Assembly: GCA_937859855.1 (NCBI GenBank)
Contig: CALMAR010000446.1
Location: forward strand, 1 to 7,294
From: an uncultured Kineosporia sp.
GTDB taxonomy: Bacteria; Actinomycetota; Actinomycetes; Actinomycetales; Kineosporiaceae
Reading direction: 5' to 3'
DNA length: 7,294 bases
Shown here: positions 14 through 6,787 of the stretch, piece by piece
Layout: each line of letters begins with the position of its first letter
Numbering within the stretch: position 1 is the stretch's first letter
Notes under the pieces: model-generated
Seen by the model: only the letters and a program-made list of their open reading frames with translations
Told to the model about the DNA's origin: nothing
The model's database searches: none
Translations under genes and position numbers: made by a program

Positions 14-1285
14 GTGAGCGGGCGGTCCGGGACGGCCCGGACGCTGAGCGGCGCCGAGCAGGACGCGTTCCGGCTGGCCCGCCTGGCAGCCGCCGAACAG
101 GCCCCGTACTTCATGCATGCCCTGTTTGCTGCCAGCCCGGTAGCGGTCCCCGGCTTGGGGACGTTCGCCGTGGACGGCGCGTGGCGGCTGTACCTCGATC
201 CCGCGCTGCTGATCGGGCCGGATCGGTGGGAGCCAGTGACGGCGGGCGCGGTGTTGCAGCACGAGGTCGGTCATCTACTCCGCGACCATGCGGCGCGGGC
301 TGCGGTGCTGGCCCCGCCGCTGGACCACCTGGCGTGGAACCTGGCCGGAGATGCAGAGATCAACGACGACCTGCTGGCGGCAGGAGTGCCGCTGCCCGAA
401 GGGGCCGTGACCCCTTCCGCGCTGGGATGCCCGCCGGGGGAACTGGCCGAGCAGTACTACGCGGTCCTGCGTCCACCGTCGCACGGAGAGCCGAAAGGCG
501 AACCGGGCCTGCCGGACGACGGCGGCGGGGGCTGCGGTTCGGGCGCTGGGTGCGAGAGCGTGCGCGGCGAGTTGCCGGCGCAGGCGGGATTGCCCGCCGG
601 GGACGGTGCGCCGCTGTCACCTGCGGAGGCCGACCTGGTGCGCCGCCAGGTCGCCACCGATGTGCAGGCTGCCAGCGCGGCGGCGGGGCGAGGCAACATG
701 CCCGTCGGCCTGACCCGGTGGGCGGATGCCGTTCTAGCCCCTCCGTCCGTCTCCTGGGATCGCCTGCTGCGAGCGGCAATTCGTCGCGCCGTGGCCGACC
801 GTGCTGGGCGGGTGAACTACAGCTACGCCCGACCATCTCGTCGTCCGATACCAGGGATCATCACTCCCGTCATGCGAGCGCCGTCCGTCAGGGTGGCGGC
901 GGTCGTGGACACCTCCGGGTCGATGAGTTCTGGTGATCTGACCGCCGCCATGAGCGAGGTCCAAGGTGTGCTGCGCTCCTGCGGGCTGGCGCGAGACCGG
1001 CTCACCGTGGTCTCGTGCGATGCCGCCGCGAGCACGGTGCAGCGCATCCGCTCCGTCTCGGAACTGCGACTCAGCGGCGGCGGCGGGACGGACATGAGAG
1101 TCGGTATCCGCGCGGTCGAGCAGGCCCGACCCCGCGCCGACGTGGTGATCGTGTTCACCGATGGGGACACGCCGTGGCCGGATCGGCCAACCCGGGCGCG
1201 GCTGATCTGCGCCGTCATCTCGCCCTGGCCCGCCTCGGGGGCACCATCGTGGGCAACGACGGTTCAGATCCCCCCGGCTGCCTAA
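14..1285 (+). CDS. VWA-like putative metallopeptidase (DUF2201 type)
   Basis: This 423-aa protein has the two-part layout of DUF2201 proteins. The N-terminal half carries the zinc-metallopeptidase motif HEVGH at residues 83-87, followed by GDAEINDD at 112-119, the place where the family supplies a further acidic or metal-binding residue. A Gly/Cys-rich linker spans about 164-185. The C-terminal half is a VWA-like domain with a complete MIDAS: DTSGSM at 299-304, GGGTD ending at D360, and TDG at 382-384. Related proteins are normally encoded next to MoxR-family AAA+ ATPases, and the pair is thought to act as a remodelling or maturation machine; no substrate can be inferred here. The GTG start is preceded by a weak AGGTG. 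An upstream gene may end at the TGA of 15-17, overlapping as GTGA, so the partner gene probably lies just outside the window. All catalytic and metal motifs are intact. The family call is firm; peptidase activity is inferred from the motif. Confidence 0.9.
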   Translation: MSGRSGTARTLSGAEQDAFRLARLAAAEQAPYFMHALFAASPVAVPGLGTFAVDGAWRLYLDPALLIGPDRWEPVTAGAVLQHEVGHLLRDHAARAAVLAPPLDHLAWNLAGDAEINDDLLAAGVPLPEGAVTPSALGCPPGELAEQYYAVLRPPSHGEPKGEPGLPDDGGGGCGSGAGCESVRGELPAQAGLPAGDGAPLSPAEADLVRRQVATDVQAASAAAGRGNMPVGLTRWADAVLAPPSVSWDRLLRAAIRRAVADRAGRVNYSYARPSRRPIPGIITPVMRAPSVRVAAVVDTSGSMSSGDLTAAMSEVQGVLRSCGLARDRLTVVSCDAAASTVQRIRSVSELRLSGGGGTDMRVGIRAVEQARPRADVVIVFTDGDTPWPDRPTRARLICAVISPWPASGAPSWATTVQIPPAA

Positions 1286-1296
1286 CCGCACGTCAT

Positions 1297-1336
1297 CTGC
1301 GGGCAGCGCTGATCCCCGAGTGAGCGCTGCCCGCAG
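1297..1336 (+). terminator. Perfect 14-bp stem-loop after the VWA gene
   Basis: The arms CTGCGGGCAGCGCT (1297-1310) and AGCGCTGCCCGCAG (1323-1336) are perfectly complementary around a 12-nt loop. The hairpin begins 11 nt after the VWA gene stop codon and ends 72 nt before the damage-type promoter. This fits a terminator separating the two transcription units. The downstream flank (TCCATTTCACG) has no real T-run. Many actinobacterial terminators lack one, but efficiency is therefore uncertain. Confidence 0.72.
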
Positions 1337-1408
1337 TCCATTTCACGGCGGCGGCCGGTGCGCCAGTACACCCCACGATCGCGAGTTCGCTGGCCCGACA
1401 AGGGGACT

Positions 1409-1431
1409 TTGTCGGTGCCCGCAAGTAGACT
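1409..1431 (+). promoter_or_regulatory. RecA-NDp (PafBC-type) DNA-damage promoter
   Basis: The sequence reads TTGTCGGTG (1409-1417), then 8 nt, then TAGACT (1426-1431). This matches the published actinobacterial RecA-NDp consensus TTGTCRGTG-N8-TAnnnT at every specified position, including the spacer. In mycobacteria such promoters drive the LexA/RecA-independent damage response through the activator PafBC. Transcription should start near 1437-1439, leaving a leader of about 50 nt before the ATG at 1487. A 7-bp inverted repeat, CCGACAA (1395-1401) and TTGTCGG (1409-1415), overlaps the upstream box. Confidence 0.8.
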
Positions 1432-1486
1432 GGAACTACCAACCGCAAGGGGCCTGACCAGCCCCAATGCACAGCGAGGACTCGCT

Positions 1487-1678
1487 ATGCCTGATCCAAT
1501 TGATCTTCCCCTGGCCTATCTGGCGCACATCCTGACCGGTACCGGGATCACTCCCGACCACGCTGGTGCGGTCGCCTCGGGGGCCTGTTCGAGTGACACC
1601 GCCGCCGGGGCTGCTCTGCGCGCAGGATGGTGCGCCGCAGGTCTGGTGCTGCTGTCCGACGACGGTGAGCAGTCATGA
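1487..1678 (+). CDS. Small unknown protein, first gene of the damage-promoter operon
   Basis: This 63-aa protein is not recognised. It begins MPDPIDLPLAYL and is rich in Ala and Gly, with Cys34 and Cys49 and a short acidic tail (DDGE). There is no convincing signal peptide or membrane helix; the moderately hydrophobic stretches could form two or three short helices. The ATG at 1487 was chosen over an in-frame ATG at 1358 for two reasons: AGCGAGGA lies 6 nt upstream, and the damage promoter at 1409-1431 would fall inside a longer reading frame. The stop codon overlaps the next gene's start as ATGA (1675-1678), which indicates translational coupling. A role as partner or regulator of the 393-aa protein is a guess from this coupling only. 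Confidence 0.7.
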   Translation: MPDPIDLPLAYLAHILTGTGITPDHAGAVASGACSSDTAAGAALRAGWCAAGLVLLSDDGEQS

Positions 1679-2856
1679 CCGTCGACTGGTTCGACCTCGG
1701 GCAGCGGCTGCGGGCCGCTCACACCGGCCAGGTCGTGGCCCGGCTCGCCGGCGCCCCCATCGTCGCGGCCGCTCATCCGGTCGCTGTGCGCATCACGGGC
1801 GTCGGCGTCGGCTGTACCGTCCAGGCTGCCGCCGGGGGACGAGGCCCCGTCTCAGCGAGCGGTGCCGATGCACTCAGAATGCTGGGCGACCTCGGAGTCA
1901 GGATCAGCGCGCCGTCCCCGGCCACGCTGGTCATCGACTCGTCCACAACCCTGGTGCAGCTCCTGGCCCTGGCCCGTGCGTTCAGCACTCCCGGCGGCCA
2001 GCAGGACGACGTTGCCGCACACATCGCGTGGTGGTGCGACCGTGCCGACTTCCCCGGCGGGCGGGCGGTAGCGGACCTGCCCACCGCCTGCCGAGCCCGC
2101 TGGGCAACCGGCACGCTCCCGGCCGCCGAGAACAATGCGGCGACCTGGCGGGCATGGCTCAACATCAGCGACGACTACGCTGCTGGCCTGATCTACCTGC
2201 ACGCACGGGTCAGCGAAGGTCACCCCCTGGCTTGGCTCAGCGACCTGGCCGAGGACAGCATCTACTCCTGGCAGGCCGCCCAGAGCCAGTACAGCGACGG
2301 GTTGGACTGGCGTCGTCCCGACTCCACCGCCCGCGCAGCAACCGGCCTGCGCGCCCGCTGCGACGCCGCCGACCTGTACGCCGCCGCCCTGCTGTCCGAC
2401 CCGCTGCACCGGCTTCGAGGCGTACACACCGGCCACGTCACGACCGGCCTCCTCGTTCCGTCCGCCAGCACTGCCGGGCGGCAGCTGAGGCACCAATGCG
2501 TGCTCTGCGATCGTCCCGACACGCGCCTGCGGCCCGGGACCGACGTGATCGGCTGGGCCGGACGCCCGGAACAGTCCGGCGCCCCTCGCTTCCGGGCAAC
2601 CGTCGCCGCCTCGGCCATCACCGCAAGCCAACTGTCCCTAGCGCTGACCGGCGTCAGCGGGAACGTCCCGGCAGCCCACCTGCCCGTCACGCTCATCCCG
2701 GCACCGCCCAACGTGCGGCAGCAGATCAGGGGACGCAGCAACTACCGAAGCCTCTACGCGGCTCGCCGCTCCTGGCTGACCGCCGGGCGCACTCCGACCC
2801 TCACGCGCCGTGAAGTACCTCTGGCCGTGCTCGTCGCCGCCGCCACCGACGACTAA
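1675..2856 (+). CDS. Unknown 393-aa protein, coupled to a small ORF and an SF1 helicase
   Basis: I do not recognise a family. The start ATG overlaps the preceding stop, and GGTGAG sits 5 nt upstream. Visible traits are an Ala/Arg-rich soluble sequence without membrane helices; a Trp/acidic central part (about 115-215, with AWWCDRADF and WLNISDDYAAGLIYL); one CxxC pair, CVLCDRPDT at 275-283, followed by RLRPGTDVIGW; and a basic C-terminal part (about 347-380) with many Arg residues. A single CxxC is not a complete zinc finger unless Cys121, Cys229 or a His joins it. The helicase gene follows after 51 nt in the same direction, so the products probably act together. A nucleic-acid-binding or helicase-loading role would suit the basic tail and the neighbour, but no motif proves it. 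The gene appears intact. Confidence 0.85.
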   Translation: MTVDWFDLGQRLRAAHTGQVVARLAGAPIVAAAHPVAVRITGVGVGCTVQAAAGGRGPVSASGADALRMLGDLGVRISAPSPATLVIDSSTTLVQLLALARAFSTPGGQQDDVAAHIAWWCDRADFPGGRAVADLPTACRARWATGTLPAAENNAATWRAWLNISDDYAAGLIYLHARVSEGHPLAWLSDLAEDSIYSWQAAQSQYSDGLDWRRPDSTARAATGLRARCDAADLYAAALLSDPLHRLRGVHTGHVTTGLLVPSASTAGRQLRHQCVLCDRPDTRLRPGTDVIGWAGRPEQSGAPRFRATVAASAITASQLSLALTGVSGNVPAAHLPVTLIPAPPNVRQQIRGRSNYRSLYAARRSWLTAGRTPTLTRREVPLAVLVAAATDD

Positions 2857-2907
2857 CCGGACGACACGAGACGTCGCCCGGGTCCCTCACCTGAATCGAG
2901 AACGATC

Positions 2908-4221
2908 ATGCGCACCATTCCGAAGTCCTCGCCAACCGGCGCCGAACCGGAGGCGGCTCCCGGCCAGCCACGCCCCGGCCAGCCAGGCCAACTATCCCAG
3001 GCAGCAGCGCCGCTGCCGTGGCGCGCCGCGCAGATCATGGACGACCCCACTACCGCCGGAGTTCTGCATTCCGCATGGTCAGGTGACCCCGCCGTCGTGG
3101 TTCCCTCCCCTCCGGGCGCCGGCAAGACCCGGCTGGTGGCCCTCCTGGCAGCCACGCTGGCCGACCGCGCCGACCTCCGGGTCGGTGTAGCCGCCCAAAC
3201 CCGCCAGCAGGCCATCGAAATCGCCTCCAGGCTGGGCCACCTGAGCGAGGCGCCACGCCTGATCTGGCCCGCGAAAAGCGAGCGACCGCAACTGCCCGGG
3301 ACGGCGCTGGCGGTCAGCGGTCGGCTGGCCCGCTTCGCTACCTCCGGGGGAGGCGTAGTGATCGCCACCACGGCCCGGTGGCTCTACGCCAACCCCTCCG
3401 ACCTGGCCTGCGATCTCATGATCGTTGATGAGGCGTGGCAGGCCACCTACGCCGACCTTGGAGCGCTCGGAGCCTTCGCCCCGCAGATCGTGTGCGTGGG
3501 CGACCCCGGTCAGATCGAGCCGGTCGTGACGGGGCAGACCCGGCGCTGGGCCGACGACCCGGCAGGACCGCACCGCCCATCCCCAGCTGCCCTTCTTGCC
3601 GCCCACCGTGACGCCGTATCCGTGGTGACCCTGAAGCACACCTGGCGCCTCGGGGCCGACACCACGGCGCTGATTCAGCCCGCCTTCTATCCGGGCCTGC
3701 CCTTCACGTCACGTCGGCCCCCAGAGCACCTCACGACCTCTGGCGGGCAGCAAACGCCGGAAGTGACCTACCGACCGCTTACCTGCCCGTCTGGACCCAC
3801 CGACCCAAACCTCCTGACCGCCTGCGCAAATCGCGTGCGCGAGCTGCTCACCCACAGCCTGACCACCCCCACCGACACGCGACCTCTACGACCCGAAGAC
3901 GTGGCCGTGATCTGTTCCCACGTCGCTCAGGCCGCTGTCGTACGCGCGTTGCTGGCGGACCTGCCGTCCGTCTTGATCGGCACCGCCAACCAGCTGCAAG
4001 GCATGGAACGGGCCGCCGCCGTCGCGCTGCACCCTCTGGCTGGATACCGAGTGTTCAGCGGCTTTGCCGCCGACCCCGGTCGAACGTGCGTGATGTTCTC
4101 TCGCCACCGTGCCCACTTGACCGTCATTGGAGACGTCAGCATCGCGGCCTTGCTGGCCCAGGCTGAACCCGTTCCAACTGCGATCGCTCACCGCCGCGTC
4201 CTGGCAGCCTTAGAGACATAA
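2908..4221 (+). CDS. Compact SF1 helicase of the Upf1/DNA2 type
   Basis: This 437-aa ATP-dependent nucleic-acid helicase or translocase has all core superfamily 1 motifs in order: a possible Q-motif around Q42; Walker A PPGAGKT at 68-74; motif Ia around 92-109; Walker B with IVDEAWQ at 172-178, the DEAxQ form typical of Upf1-like helicases; motif III GDPGQIEP at 198-205; motif IV region LKHTWRL at 242-248; motif V GTANQLQGMER at 358-368; and motif VI FSRHRAHLTVIGD at 397-409 with candidate arginine fingers. The first 35 residues are Pro/Ala/Gln-rich and probably disordered. It is small for SF1 and shows no large accessory insertions, nuclease domain or zinc cluster, so specificity may come from the two upstream products. 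The ATG at 2908 has only a weak GAGAA before it. Enzyme class is firm; polarity and DNA versus RNA substrate cannot be told. Confidence 0.9.
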   Translation: MRTIPKSSPTGAEPEAAPGQPRPGQPGQLSQAAAPLPWRAAQIMDDPTTAGVLHSAWSGDPAVVVPSPPGAGKTRLVALLAATLADRADLRVGVAAQTRQQAIEIASRLGHLSEAPRLIWPAKSERPQLPGTALAVSGRLARFATSGGGVVIATTARWLYANPSDLACDLMIVDEAWQATYADLGALGAFAPQIVCVGDPGQIEPVVTGQTRRWADDPAGPHRPSPAALLAAHRDAVSVVTLKHTWRLGADTTALIQPAFYPGLPFTSRRPPEHLTTSGGQQTPEVTYRPLTCPSGPTDPNLLTACANRVRELLTHSLTTPTDTRPLRPEDVAVICSHVAQAAVVRALLADLPSVLIGTANQLQGMERAAAVALHPLAGYRVFSGFAADPGRTCVMFSRHRAHLTVIGDVSIAALLAQAEPVPTAIAHRRVLAALET

Positions 4222-4259
4222 AGAAGAGATGTTCCCGGTCTCCGCTTATGGTACGAAAC

Positions 4260-4283
4260 CATCACGGGCTTAGCCCGTGGATG
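4260..4283 (+). terminator. Stem-loop after the helicase gene
   Basis: CATCACGGGC (4260-4269) pairs with GCCCGTGGATG (4273-4283) around a TTA loop, with one bulged G. It lies about 40 nt after the helicase stop codon and is a reasonable terminator for the operon. No T-run follows, so this is inference from position and shape. Confidence 0.5.
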
Positions 4284-4315
4284 TCGTTCTCTCGGCTTGT
4301 CAGCTTAGCTTTTCC

Positions 4316-4332
4316 CATCAGCTTTGCTGATG
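4316..4332. repeat. Small inverted repeat (hairpin) in the intergenic gap
   Basis: CATCAGC (4316-4322) and GCTGATG (4326-4332) form a perfect 7-bp stem with a TTT loop. It may help terminate transcription arriving from either side, since the flanking genes converge. No T-run lies beside it on either strand. Confidence 0.4.
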
Positions 4333-4430
4333 CCGTCAGCGGAGCGGAACTGGTTGCCAGTCTGGGGGCCGCGTCGGAGAAACGCTGCCGACGAGGCGGC
4401 TGCTTGTCATCCAGTCAGTAAGTATACAAA

Positions 4431-4823
4431 TTACGGTGGAGGCTTAGGCTTCATGAATTTGTACACGTAGATTGCGGCAAGCAAAAGACCTGAAACTATC
4501 ACCGATATGAAAAGATCTCGCAGAGCATCCAACATTGCATGCGCGGGAATCGCGCCGAACTCATCCCAATAACTTGGTACCGGCTGCAGCGGCGGTAGAG
4601 GCGGGGAAGACAATTTACCATCGGCGGTGAGCGTGAACGCGGGCCAGTTAATTGGTTCGTTCGTCTCCGTGCTGGATTCTACGATAGCTAGAAACACAAC
4701 GATATACAGGAGGTGCTCTCCAATCCAATCCGCCTTTTCGGCAATTTCATGCCACTTAAAAGCCCAGGCAAAGCCGAGGACAATAGCGCACAAAATGCTT
4801 AAACCGGTCAAAAGTGCTTCCAT
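4431..4823 (-). CDS. Hypothetical three-helix membrane protein in low-GC DNA
   Basis: The 130-aa product is not recognised. It has three hydrophobic segments at about residues 3-23, 33-49 and 104-123, a polar Pro-rich stretch between the second and third (about 50-95), and a short basic, Pro-rich tail (KPKPPP). The start is uncertain. ATG at 4823 puts the first helix at the N-terminus and has a leaderless-type promoter before it on the minus strand (TTGCGC, 18 nt, CACAAT, 7 nt, ATG). In-frame ATGs at 4847 and 4865 would add 8 or 14 residues; none has a good ribosome binding site. The DNA from 4441 to 4860 is about 50% G+C by hand count, far below the neighbours, so it was probably acquired separately. 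It converges with the helicase gene and shows no operon link. It could be a small phage, plasmid or island protein, but nothing in the sequence decides this. Confidence 0.55.
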   Translation of the reverse strand: MEALLTGLSILCAIVLGFAWAFKWHEIAEKADWIGEHLLYIVVFLAIVESSTETNEPINWPAFTLTADGKLSSPPLPPLQPVPSYWDEFGAIPAHAMLDALRDLFISVIVSGLLLAAIYVYKFMKPKPPP

Positions 4824-4884
4824 AACAACAATTGTGTCGCAAGACATGTCACGAGCGCAAACCATCAAGAGCTTTTTTCTCGTC

Positions 4885-4984: not shown

Positions 4985-6082
4985 TCAGGCATTGCCGAGG
5001 TTGGGTTCGATGACTGCACCCGGGGCCGTGCCGGTGGTGCTTCGGCGGCTGAGGATGGTTGCGCCGGCGAGCGTTACGACAATTCCGACGGCAGCCCAGA
5101 GCGCGAGGACGGTGACATGGCCGCCGATTCCGTCGGCCCCGAAGTAGACGATTCGGCGCACCGTGTCAGTGCCTGCGCCGCTAGGAAGGGCGCTGGAGAT
5201 AGCGCGCCAGAACGGAGGCAACAGCGGCGTCTGATATGCACCCCCGGCGCTGGGGTTGCCGAGCACGACGAACAGCAGGACAGCGGCGCCGATACCGAGG
5301 ACGCCGAGGAGCACCTGGAGCGCCATGGTGACGGTTGCGGCACCAAAGACGATCAAGGTGCCAATCGCCCAGAGCGCAGCGAAGTGGCCGGTCAGCGCAC
5401 CGAGCACCGGCCCGACGATGATCGCGCCACCAAGTCCAGAGAAGATGGCGTACGGGATCATGGCCAGGATGCGGATGAGTGCCCGGCGTGTTGTGGCGGG
5501 CCGTGCGCCCTTGGACATTGCGAGCAATGCAGCCACCAGGTACCCGCCGACGATCCAGCCAATCACCAGGTAGAAGCCTGTGAGGCCGCGGGCGTCGCCG
5601 CTTTGCAACGGCACGATGTCCGAAACTTGAAGCGTGCGGTGCTGCGACGCGTCGACCCGCGTCAAGACAGTCTGTGCCGCTGTGACGACCGACGCCCCAC
5701 CGCCGGAGGCTACAAGCAAGGTGTCCGTCTGTGAGCTGGGGTTGATCAAGAAAGCCGCGCTGACCTTGTCCTGCGCTATCAGACTGCGAGCAGCCGCTTC
5801 GCTCGCTACGGGAGTGACGTGGAGCGGGTCGGAAGGCAGGGCATTGAGTTCTGTCACGACCTCCGCAGGCGCAAGTGCAGCCATCGCGATGCGGTGAGGT
5901 TTTGGTGCATGAAAGGCACCGACGTATGACAACACGAAGCCCAGCTGCAGGACCAGTACGCCTACCACCAGGGCGATGGTGCGCCCCGACACTGCATCGC
6001 GCACCTCCGCCATAAAGGACTGCGGCGGCTCGGGAGGGACGGTCGCACCCGAGGTCATGGACACGTTGCCCTGGACACTCAT
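4985..6082 (-). CDS. DUF3533/YhgE-Pip type membrane protein (ABC-2-like permease fold)
   Basis: This 365-aa integral membrane protein has a cytoplasmic N-terminus, one helix at about 35-57, a large extracytoplasmic domain (about 58-165), and then about five helices (around 168-188, 203-225, 233-255, 258-275 and 322-344). The stretch NPSAGGAYQTPLLPPFW at 276-292, followed by SALPSGAGTDTVRRIVYF, is the characteristic signature of the DUF3533/YhgE family. This family resembles ABC-2 permeases but lacks its own ATPase. The role is uncertain; members are linked to export or to cell-envelope stress and are often paired with TetR regulators, as here. ATG at 6082 is preferred because a near-consensus promoter puts the transcription start at this codon. 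An ATG at 6058 with AGGG ten nt upstream is an alternative. No ATPase gene lies beside it, so an ordinary ABC exporter pair is not seen. Confidence 0.82.
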   Translation of the reverse strand: MSVQGNVSMTSGATVPPEPPQSFMAEVRDAVSGRTIALVVGVLVLQLGFVLSYVGAFHAPKPHRIAMAALAPAEVVTELNALPSDPLHVTPVASEAAARSLIAQDKVSAAFLINPSSQTDTLLVASGGGASVVTAAQTVLTRVDASQHRTLQVSDIVPLQSGDARGLTGFYLVIGWIVGGYLVAALLAMSKGARPATTRRALIRILAMIPYAIFSGLGGAIIVGPVLGALTGHFAALWAIGTLIVFGAATVTMALQVLLGVLGIGAAVLLFVVLGNPSAGGAYQTPLLPPFWRAISSALPSGAGTDTVRRIVYFGADGIGGHVTVLALWAAVGIVVTLAGATILSRRSTTGTAPGAVIEPNLGNA

Positions 6083-6133: not shown

Positions 6134-6787
6134 GTGACAACCGAGAGCCAGCAGCCACACCGCACGCCGGGCCACGCCACCAGCAGCACACCAAGACGCA
6201 CCACCCGGCGACGGGCTGAGACTCGCGGCCGCCTCTTGGCGGCCGGCTTCGCAGTGTTCGCCCAAAAAGGTTTCGGAGCCACCCGCATCGAGGACGTCTG
6301 CGAGGCGGCCGGCTACACAAGGGGAGCGTTCTACTCCAACTTCAGCAGCCTCGACGAGTTGTTCTATGCGATCTACCAGCAACGAGCCGCGGTCATTTCG
6401 GGGCAGATCACGGCCGCGTTGGCCGGCGACAACCTCCAGAATTCTGTGCGGTCGATCCTCGATGCCCTGATCGTTGACCGCGACTGGGTCTTGATAAAGA
6501 CCGACTTTCTGCTGTACGCGGCGAGGAACCCACCGGTAGACCGGGAATTGCGGGCCCATCGGGCAGGTCTGCTCGATTCAGTCGCGGGCGCGTTGAGCCC
6601 ACTCGTGGACGCGACACGGTTACCGAAAACCCTTCGCAAGCCCAATGACCTTGCTCAAGCCGTGATCGCACTTTACGACGGCGCCATGGAACTCCTGCTT
6701 CTCCAACCCGACATGCCACATCTACGCGCGTGGCTGGCGGACGCGATCATGGCGATGCTCGACGACGCCCATAATCAGGGCCAATGA
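6134..6787 (+). CDS. TetR-family transcriptional repressor
   Basis: This 217-aa protein has a basic, disordered N-terminal tail (about 1-27) and then the TetR DNA-binding domain: helix 1 at about 29-46 (ETRGRLLAAGFAVFAQKGF) and the helix-turn-helix at about 50-70 (TRIEDVCEAAGYTRGAFYSNF), followed by SSLDELFYAI. The rest is the helical ligand-binding and dimerisation domain; its ligand is unknown. GTG at 6134 was chosen because GGAG (6124-6127) stands 6 nt upstream, whereas an in-frame GTG at 6101 lies inside the operator and has no ribosome binding site. Divergent to the DUF3533-type gene with shared operator candidates, it most likely represses that gene and itself. Length and domains are normal for the family. 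Confidence 0.92.
   Translation: MTTESQQPHRTPGHATSSTPRRTTRRRAETRGRLLAAGFAVFAQKGFGATRIEDVCEAAGYTRGAFYSNFSSLDELFYAIYQQRAAVISGQITAALAGDNLQNSVRSILDALIVDRDWVLIKTDFLLYAARNPPVDRELRAHRAGLLDSVAGALSPLVDATRLPKTLRKPNDLAQAVIALYDGAMELLLLQPDMPHLRAWLADAIMAMLDDAHNQGQ

Follow-up and report, generated by a model that had tools for sequence, protein, structure and literature searches.

PafBC-type promoter sites and a covarying leader hairpin precede a helicase-bearing plasmid cassette in actinobacteria

Mycobacterial PafBC promoters, also called RecA-NDp or recA P1-type promoters, have been reported for host DNA-repair genes in the accounts considered here. PafBC is described as being activated by single-stranded DNA (ssDNA) and as redirecting the sigma-A RNA polymerase to such promoters (PMC11804915), for which the consensus tTGTCRgtg-8 nt-TannnT has been printed (PMC5656591); this motif is the one used by PafBC (PMC6789036). 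Regulatory repeats of plasmid establishment genes are also known from Bacillus, where EGeRS1, which has inverted repeats, and EGeRS2 precede several operons, including ardC, on plasmids of the pLS20 family, while the single-stranded promoters of F and ColIb-P9 place inverted repeats before several anti-restriction operons (PMC8708921). We analyzed a 7,294-nucleotide stretch of DNA (the window) from an uncultured Kineosporia sp. (contig CALMAR010000446.1), in which a promoter site identical in consensus and spacing to the mycobacterial ones precedes a helicase operon and is followed by a leader hairpin. Here, unlike in the mycobacterial cases, copies of the site head plasmid operons, many with the hairpin at a near-fixed distance. 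Among the matches listed for the open-licence PMC literature, we found no paper on this leader, characterized by the loop CTGACCA, or on PafBC-driven plasmid regulons, and neither the promoter-hairpin composite nor its spread over actinobacterial plasmids was found there.

The site occupies positions 1409-1431 of the forward strand, with TTGTCGGTG at 1409-1417, a spacer at 1418-1425 and the -10 element TAGACT at 1426-1431. Scanning with TTGTCRGTG-N8-TANNNT gave zero mismatches; hence the exact RecA-NDp/PafBC motif claimed in a preliminary description of the window, made from the sequence alone, was confirmed at every fixed base and in its spacing. The downstream operon was also correctly delimited there at 1487-4221, with open reading frames at 1487-1678, 1675-2856 and 2908-4221. 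With up to two mismatches allowed, the window held two matches against 0.17 expected, and two or more were reached by 4 of 200 shuffled sequences, so that the motif is real and above chance. It is separated from the ATG at 1487 by 55 nt, giving a leader of 78 bp from motif to start codon, and the transcription start would be expected at 1437-1439, as the preliminary description estimated from the position of the -10 element. Since the first T of the consensus is weakly conserved, NTGTC-type sites were counted as well. A search of 1200-4500 for ordinary sigma-70-type promoters found none, which carries little weight with only 0.1 expected by chance. A scan for strict LexA boxes gave none in the window, and in 35 related loci none of the boxes listed fell in the 250 nt ahead of any cassette gene; judged by these strict patterns, the cassette does not appear to belong to the LexA/SOS regulon.

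Within the leader, a hairpin of the form GGGGC-CTGACCA-GCCCC is predicted on the forward strand at 1449-1465 (loop 1454-1460), with additional GCA/TGC pairing between 1445-1447 and 1468-1470, and its loop starts 45 nt past the start of the promoter motif. The fold of this single leader had a z-score of -1.9 and was equaled in 6 of 200 shuffles. In the collected loci, 30 of the 140 occurrences of CTGACCA were flanked by a stem of at least four Watson-Crick pairs, compared with 44 of 3417 for 60 permuted words, a count that included near-identical loci. All 22 exact CTGACCA occurrences located 10-90 nt upstream of cassette genes had at least five of six pairs (G-U allowed) and stood 21-31 nt ahead of the start codon. 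Among 13 distinct rows, 92.3% of the cells were paired compared with 53.8% after shuffling, and 28 cells had changed on both sides of the stem against 9.1 in shuffled data, with none of 500 shuffles as high on either measure. The stems of the predicted hairpin therefore covary strongly. A second predicted hairpin, AGCGA-GGAC-TCGCT (1473-1486, forward strand), includes the Shine-Dalgarno-like GAGGA and would end immediately before the ATG at 1487.

The distance between promoter and hairpin was nearly constant. The spacing sample comprised 29 distinct promoter sites from 23 non-mycobacterial loci, including six sites (L072/L074) from a contig chosen for its hairpin hits. At 15 of these sites, the loop began 45-49 nt downstream of where the motif starts, against 0.0012 expected per site, and 14 of the 15 loops had at least five of six pairs, the remaining one having four. 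Outside a distant clade (L024-L027), the proportion rose to 15 of 16. Many mycobacterial leaders presented a different, bulged hairpin at the corresponding place, and the hairpin was also found ahead of cassettes without a PafBC site. The CTGACCA leader fits no cis-regulatory RNA family described in Rfam: window positions 1380-1520 gave two matches far below the gathering score (E 5.2 and 8.6), and region 5600-9300 of locus L022 gave three below it, all on the opposite strand. At the gathering score, the sole match over 10 sources was a Transposase-2 sRNA (RF03015) at 3466-3534 of L030, adjoining an IS607 TnpB gene. In the distant clade, the Microbacterium locus L024 has five ATGTCGGTG promoter sites (at 1555, 4155, 6271, 7908 and 9327), each followed by a near-identical ATGAATGTCAGATTCAC stretch, another type of leader.

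We then considered how often the promoter recurs in 35 cassette loci, a sample containing the near-identical pairs L020/L021 and L022/L031. In 19 loci, one or more cassette genes had the pattern NTGTCRGTG-N8-TANNNT in the 250 nt ahead of them, and an NTGTC-type site preceded the small first gene of the operon in 13 of the 28 loci where that gene was recognisable. Over the 35 whole loci, 61 sites were in sense orientation versus 3 antisense, and all four transcription units in both Mycolicibacter loci had an exact site of their own. PafBC-type sites are rare genome-wide: the cassette locus held four of the eight exact sites in one genome (G008) and five of the eight NTGTC sites in another (G012), while two of the 15 genomes scanned had no exact site. 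With the pattern reversed as a control, the exact-site scan gave 2 matches against 137 and the NTGTC scan 5 against 184. On whole plasmid records, sites were mostly on a single strand (forward/reverse 0/10, 0/9, 0/3 and 0/2, with both strands used in 3/7 and 3/6), as on a plasmid contig of G015 (C2, 0/7); pRHL2 had 1/0, distant from its cassette, and four other records had none. WYL proteins were present in all 15 relatives' genomes, each with a tandem pair approximately 0.9-1.1 kb apart, a spacing like that of pafB-pafC as read from coordinates rather than from synteny. These orthologous positions in several families, mainly in sense orientation, together with the few genome-wide copies and the tandem WYL pairs, support the earlier suggestion of an actinobacterial damage promoter. 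On the chromosome of Actinopolymorpha (G011), the 23-mer TTGTCGGTGGTCGGGTCTAGGGT or near copies of it occurred many times over, which suggests a repeat family carrying the PafBC site.

To survey the genes headed by the leader, we searched 473,653 bases of loci with a covariance model (R1) built from the hairpin, obtaining 44 matches at E ≤ 1, including its own 18 training rows. In genome G001, 13 of 16 hits fell on the 90-kb contig bearing the cassette. On the Xylanimonas plasmid pXCEL01, nine of 13 hits (two of them training rows) preceded annotated starts on the same strand by 8-38 nt; the other four included one over an annotated 5' end, one approximately 110 nt before a WhiB gene and one within a long annotated gene. 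Genes headed by the hairpin on this plasmid include an ArdC anti-restriction gene (Pfam ArdcN), and another copy heads a small gene with an N-6 DNA methylase next in line. A repeated regulatory sequence, here the hairpin only, thus stands before several operons including an anti-restriction gene, as in an establishment regulon. In Tetrasphaera (G003), six of 17 hits were directly 3' of a PafBC site, one being a training row, and Cellulosimicrobium pCPRO01 had five leaders with the loop variant CCGACCA, all with the six of six pairs demanded for variant loops. Genes for the DNA polymerase III beta (sliding) clamp were found behind promoter-hairpin units in two places. On mycobacterial plasmids, the promoter site lay directly before a methyltransferase-SNF2 helicase gene (M. 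vanbaalenii) or before the small gene ahead of its counterpart, for which the helicase match fell below the cut-off, and before a gene with a cytosine methyltransferase behind it (M. alvei). Very long methyltransferase proteins were encoded behind promoter sites at L062 12994-17691 (reverse strand) and L032 11042-15311, both on mycobacterial plasmids, with an SNF2 domain above the cut-off in L032.

In relatives of the window, the genes occur in the order MoxR ATPase, metallopeptidase/VWA protein, small gene, 393-aa gene and helicase. The window encodes a DUF2201 metallopeptidase with a VWA domain (14-1285; HEVGHLLRDH and DTSGS), a small protein of 63 aa (1487-1678), the 393-aa protein (1675-2856) and a 437-aa SF1 helicase core (2908-4221; AAA_30/AAA_12/AAA_19), all on the forward strand; its MoxR partner would fall outside, the window being cut off at that place. 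The preliminary description had proposed an operon of two unknown genes and a helicase: the genes were correct, and the operon proved to be the distal part of this five-gene cassette. The 63-aa protein had no match in Pfam, NCBIfam or PADLOC, the 393-aa protein had none in Pfam, and locus L009 yielded no helicase. The HExxH motif was invariant among the 34 metallopeptidase/VWA homologues; DTSGS was present in 28. As in the described NorQ/NorD and RavA/ViaA pairs, the MoxR gene adjoins the VWA gene in relatives; unlike what the accounts considered give for those pairs, the VWA protein of the cassette bears a DUF2201 metallopeptidase, is encoded with a helicase core and a proposed second subunit, and is located on plasmids. 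Among 7998 candidates scored, 143 homologues of the 393-aa protein were found at E ≤ 0.001. The protein occurred on 45 plasmid records, on no phage record and in no viral contig searched, and it is sparse in genome draws: 17 of 401 genomes in the family draw around G009 (that genome, known beforehand, included; six being weak partial matches), 4 of 186 in the G003 family (two known beforehand, one in two pieces) and 1 of 396 in the phylum draw, namely the centre genome itself. By its location in relatives, this is a plasmid cassette, and the window itself is probably plasmid DNA. The earlier proposal that the operon serves genome maintenance or belongs to a mobile element is supported by this location and by ArdC, the gene ahead of the DNA methylase and the sliding clamps under like leaders. 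Six genomes (L045-L050) have open frames of 536-757 aa that weakly match the 393-aa protein over its residues 113-162. Insertion sequence (IS) elements at L033 3965-6283 and 8240-9498 lie inside the cassette of Rhodococcus pRWAY03, whose genes are still recognisable, and an SRAP-domain (SOS response-associated) peptidase is encoded near the pXCEL01 cassette (L001 4615-5325, reverse strand).

Upf1-like SF1B helicases have the domain order stalk, 1B barrel, RecA1 and RecA2. The C-terminal half of the 393-aa protein resembles in fold the stalk and 1B beta-barrel of this group, and the window helicase has an SF1 RecA1/RecA2 core (AAA_12 and AAA_30 above the Pfam cut-off, AAA_11 just below) without an N-terminal barrel domain. 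Because the barrel-like half is in one protein and the downstream helicase lacks a barrel, the two are possibly parts of one split Upf1-like helicase. Reading them in tandem restores an order like that of Ighmbp2, Upf1, Senataxin/Sen1 and Dna2, although two genes are involved here and the likeness is confined to the C-terminal half of the first protein. No natural fusion was found among the candidates scored; the two products may assemble as subunits. A split Upf1-like helicase was not met among the matches listed for the open-licence PMC literature, where no search was aimed at split helicases.

We lean, with modest confidence, towards reading the PafBC-dependent sigma-A-type promoter and the leader hairpin as a composite plasmid regulatory module for a maintenance or establishment regulon. 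Host PafBC would respond to ssDNA produced by damage, or possibly by the entry of DNA, and once active would let RNA polymerase use the plasmid-borne promoters and transcribe several operons. The hairpin, a short way ahead of the start codon in the mRNA, would then adjust translation or transcript stability. The window's copy of the module would drive the small protein together with two parts of a split Upf1/Dna2-like helicase, its barrel subunit and its RecA-like core, and these products would work with the upstream-encoded MoxR ATPase and metallopeptidase/VWA protein. Together with anti-restriction and replication helpers, this machine would keep plasmid DNA intact or aid its establishment. 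The leader copies, borne by plasmids and plasmid-like regions of actinobacteria, would then define an element-wide regulon, and plasmids may tap the ssDNA alarm of their host. A bolder version, which we regard as rather unlikely, makes PafBC an entry alarm through which incoming or damaged ssDNA would switch on plasmid operons for anti-restriction, methylation, clamp and split helicase/MoxR/metallopeptidase functions via one module of PafBC promoter and covarying translational hairpin. Several observations limit this reading. pXCEL01 has no PafBC site, so its repeated leader is the hairpin alone. The promoter is missing at 16 of the 35 cassette loci, namely all Rhodococcus loci (L003, L004, L013-L018 and L033) and L001, L002, L010, L011, L012, L025 and L058, the cassette being incomplete in L012 and L058, which run into a contig or stretch end; both Promicromonosporaceae loci are among them. 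By the test proposed in the preliminary description, conservation of the motif in orthologous loci, PafBC control is therefore not universal, even with 19 loci from several families in its favor. Finally, 14 of the 29 promoter sites had no spaced loop (13 in the distant clade and one in L008).

A simpler account, to which we grant a substantial chance somewhat short of even, is that the promoter merely joins plasmid repair genes to the host LexA-independent damage response, the cassette repairing plasmid DNA, for example by removing DNA-bound proteins, with no establishment role. It accommodates the invariant HExxH, the operon's helicase, the PafBC motif itself, the two sliding clamps and the SRAP peptidase near the pXCEL01 cassette, and it fits the relaxase searches, in which the two families tried were found in 0 of 12 (PF03432) and 0 of 11 (PF08751) plasmid records. 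PLSDB nonetheless assigns mobility type MOBP to five plasmid records, and linear M. avium plasmids are held to be conjugative without a TraA relaxase in the text considered (PMC12803027). Against repair alone stand the hairpin shared by ArdC and the gene preceding the DNA methylase, and its persistence where the PafBC site is absent. We consider it improbable that the cassette is a damage-inducible anti-phage or anti-plasmid defence system. MoxR and VWA domains do occur in described conflict systems (PMC7159879), and PADLOC matched the helicase to MkoA and MkoC (E 1.3e-11 and 1.8e-9), but these matches are limited to short helicase segments within large proteins, neither the metallopeptidase/VWA protein nor the small protein had any, the 393-aa protein matched only Csx19 (E 0.027), and on pXCEL01 the hairpin heads ArdC, not known defence genes.

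The near-fixed spacing could also mean that the hairpin acts in DNA, as an operator or an ssDNA structure like the promoters heading operons of F and ColIb-P9 (PMC8708921), which we think unlikely. The stems vary around a fixed, non-palindromic loop, unlike a dimer operator, and the hairpin is 3' of the -10 element, within the predicted transcript, at a near-fixed distance to the start codon. In F and ColIb-P9, the hairpin forms the promoter itself, whereas here it lies downstream of the -10 element on plasmids without a relaxase of the two families tested. EGeRS1 differs as well, being described as 400-600 bp long with no strong sigma-A promoter upstream of ardC (PMC8708921), compared with the 78-bp leader, PafBC-type promoter and one short hairpin of the window. 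Least probable, in our judgment, is use of the site by another regulator or by sigma-A alone. ClgR is stated to recognise the P1 promoter region (PMC5656591), but the motif is the consensus attributed to PafBC (PMC6789036), and the empty sigma-70 scan argues, with the little weight noted above, against sigma-A alone.

If the entry alarm exists, it would be a new way of running an establishment regulon. The composite reading as a whole would tie plasmid life to the actinobacterial sensor of ssDNA and damage. It would also bring in a strongly covarying, structured mRNA leader that is absent from Rfam, and would point to bacteria in which a Upf1-like helicase is genetically split. The promoter with a CTGACCA hairpin at 45-50 nt offers a searchable mark for plasmid regulons and their unknown genes, making the regulation of establishment genes on actinobacterial plasmids directly testable. 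Downstream of the cassette, with no link to it seen, the window encodes a YhgE/Pip-like membrane protein (4985-6079, reverse strand; below the model cut-off), divergent from a TetR-type regulator (6134-6784, forward strand). A 145-aa protein (4431-4868, reverse strand) had a sub-threshold match to TrbC/VirB2 as its sole match.
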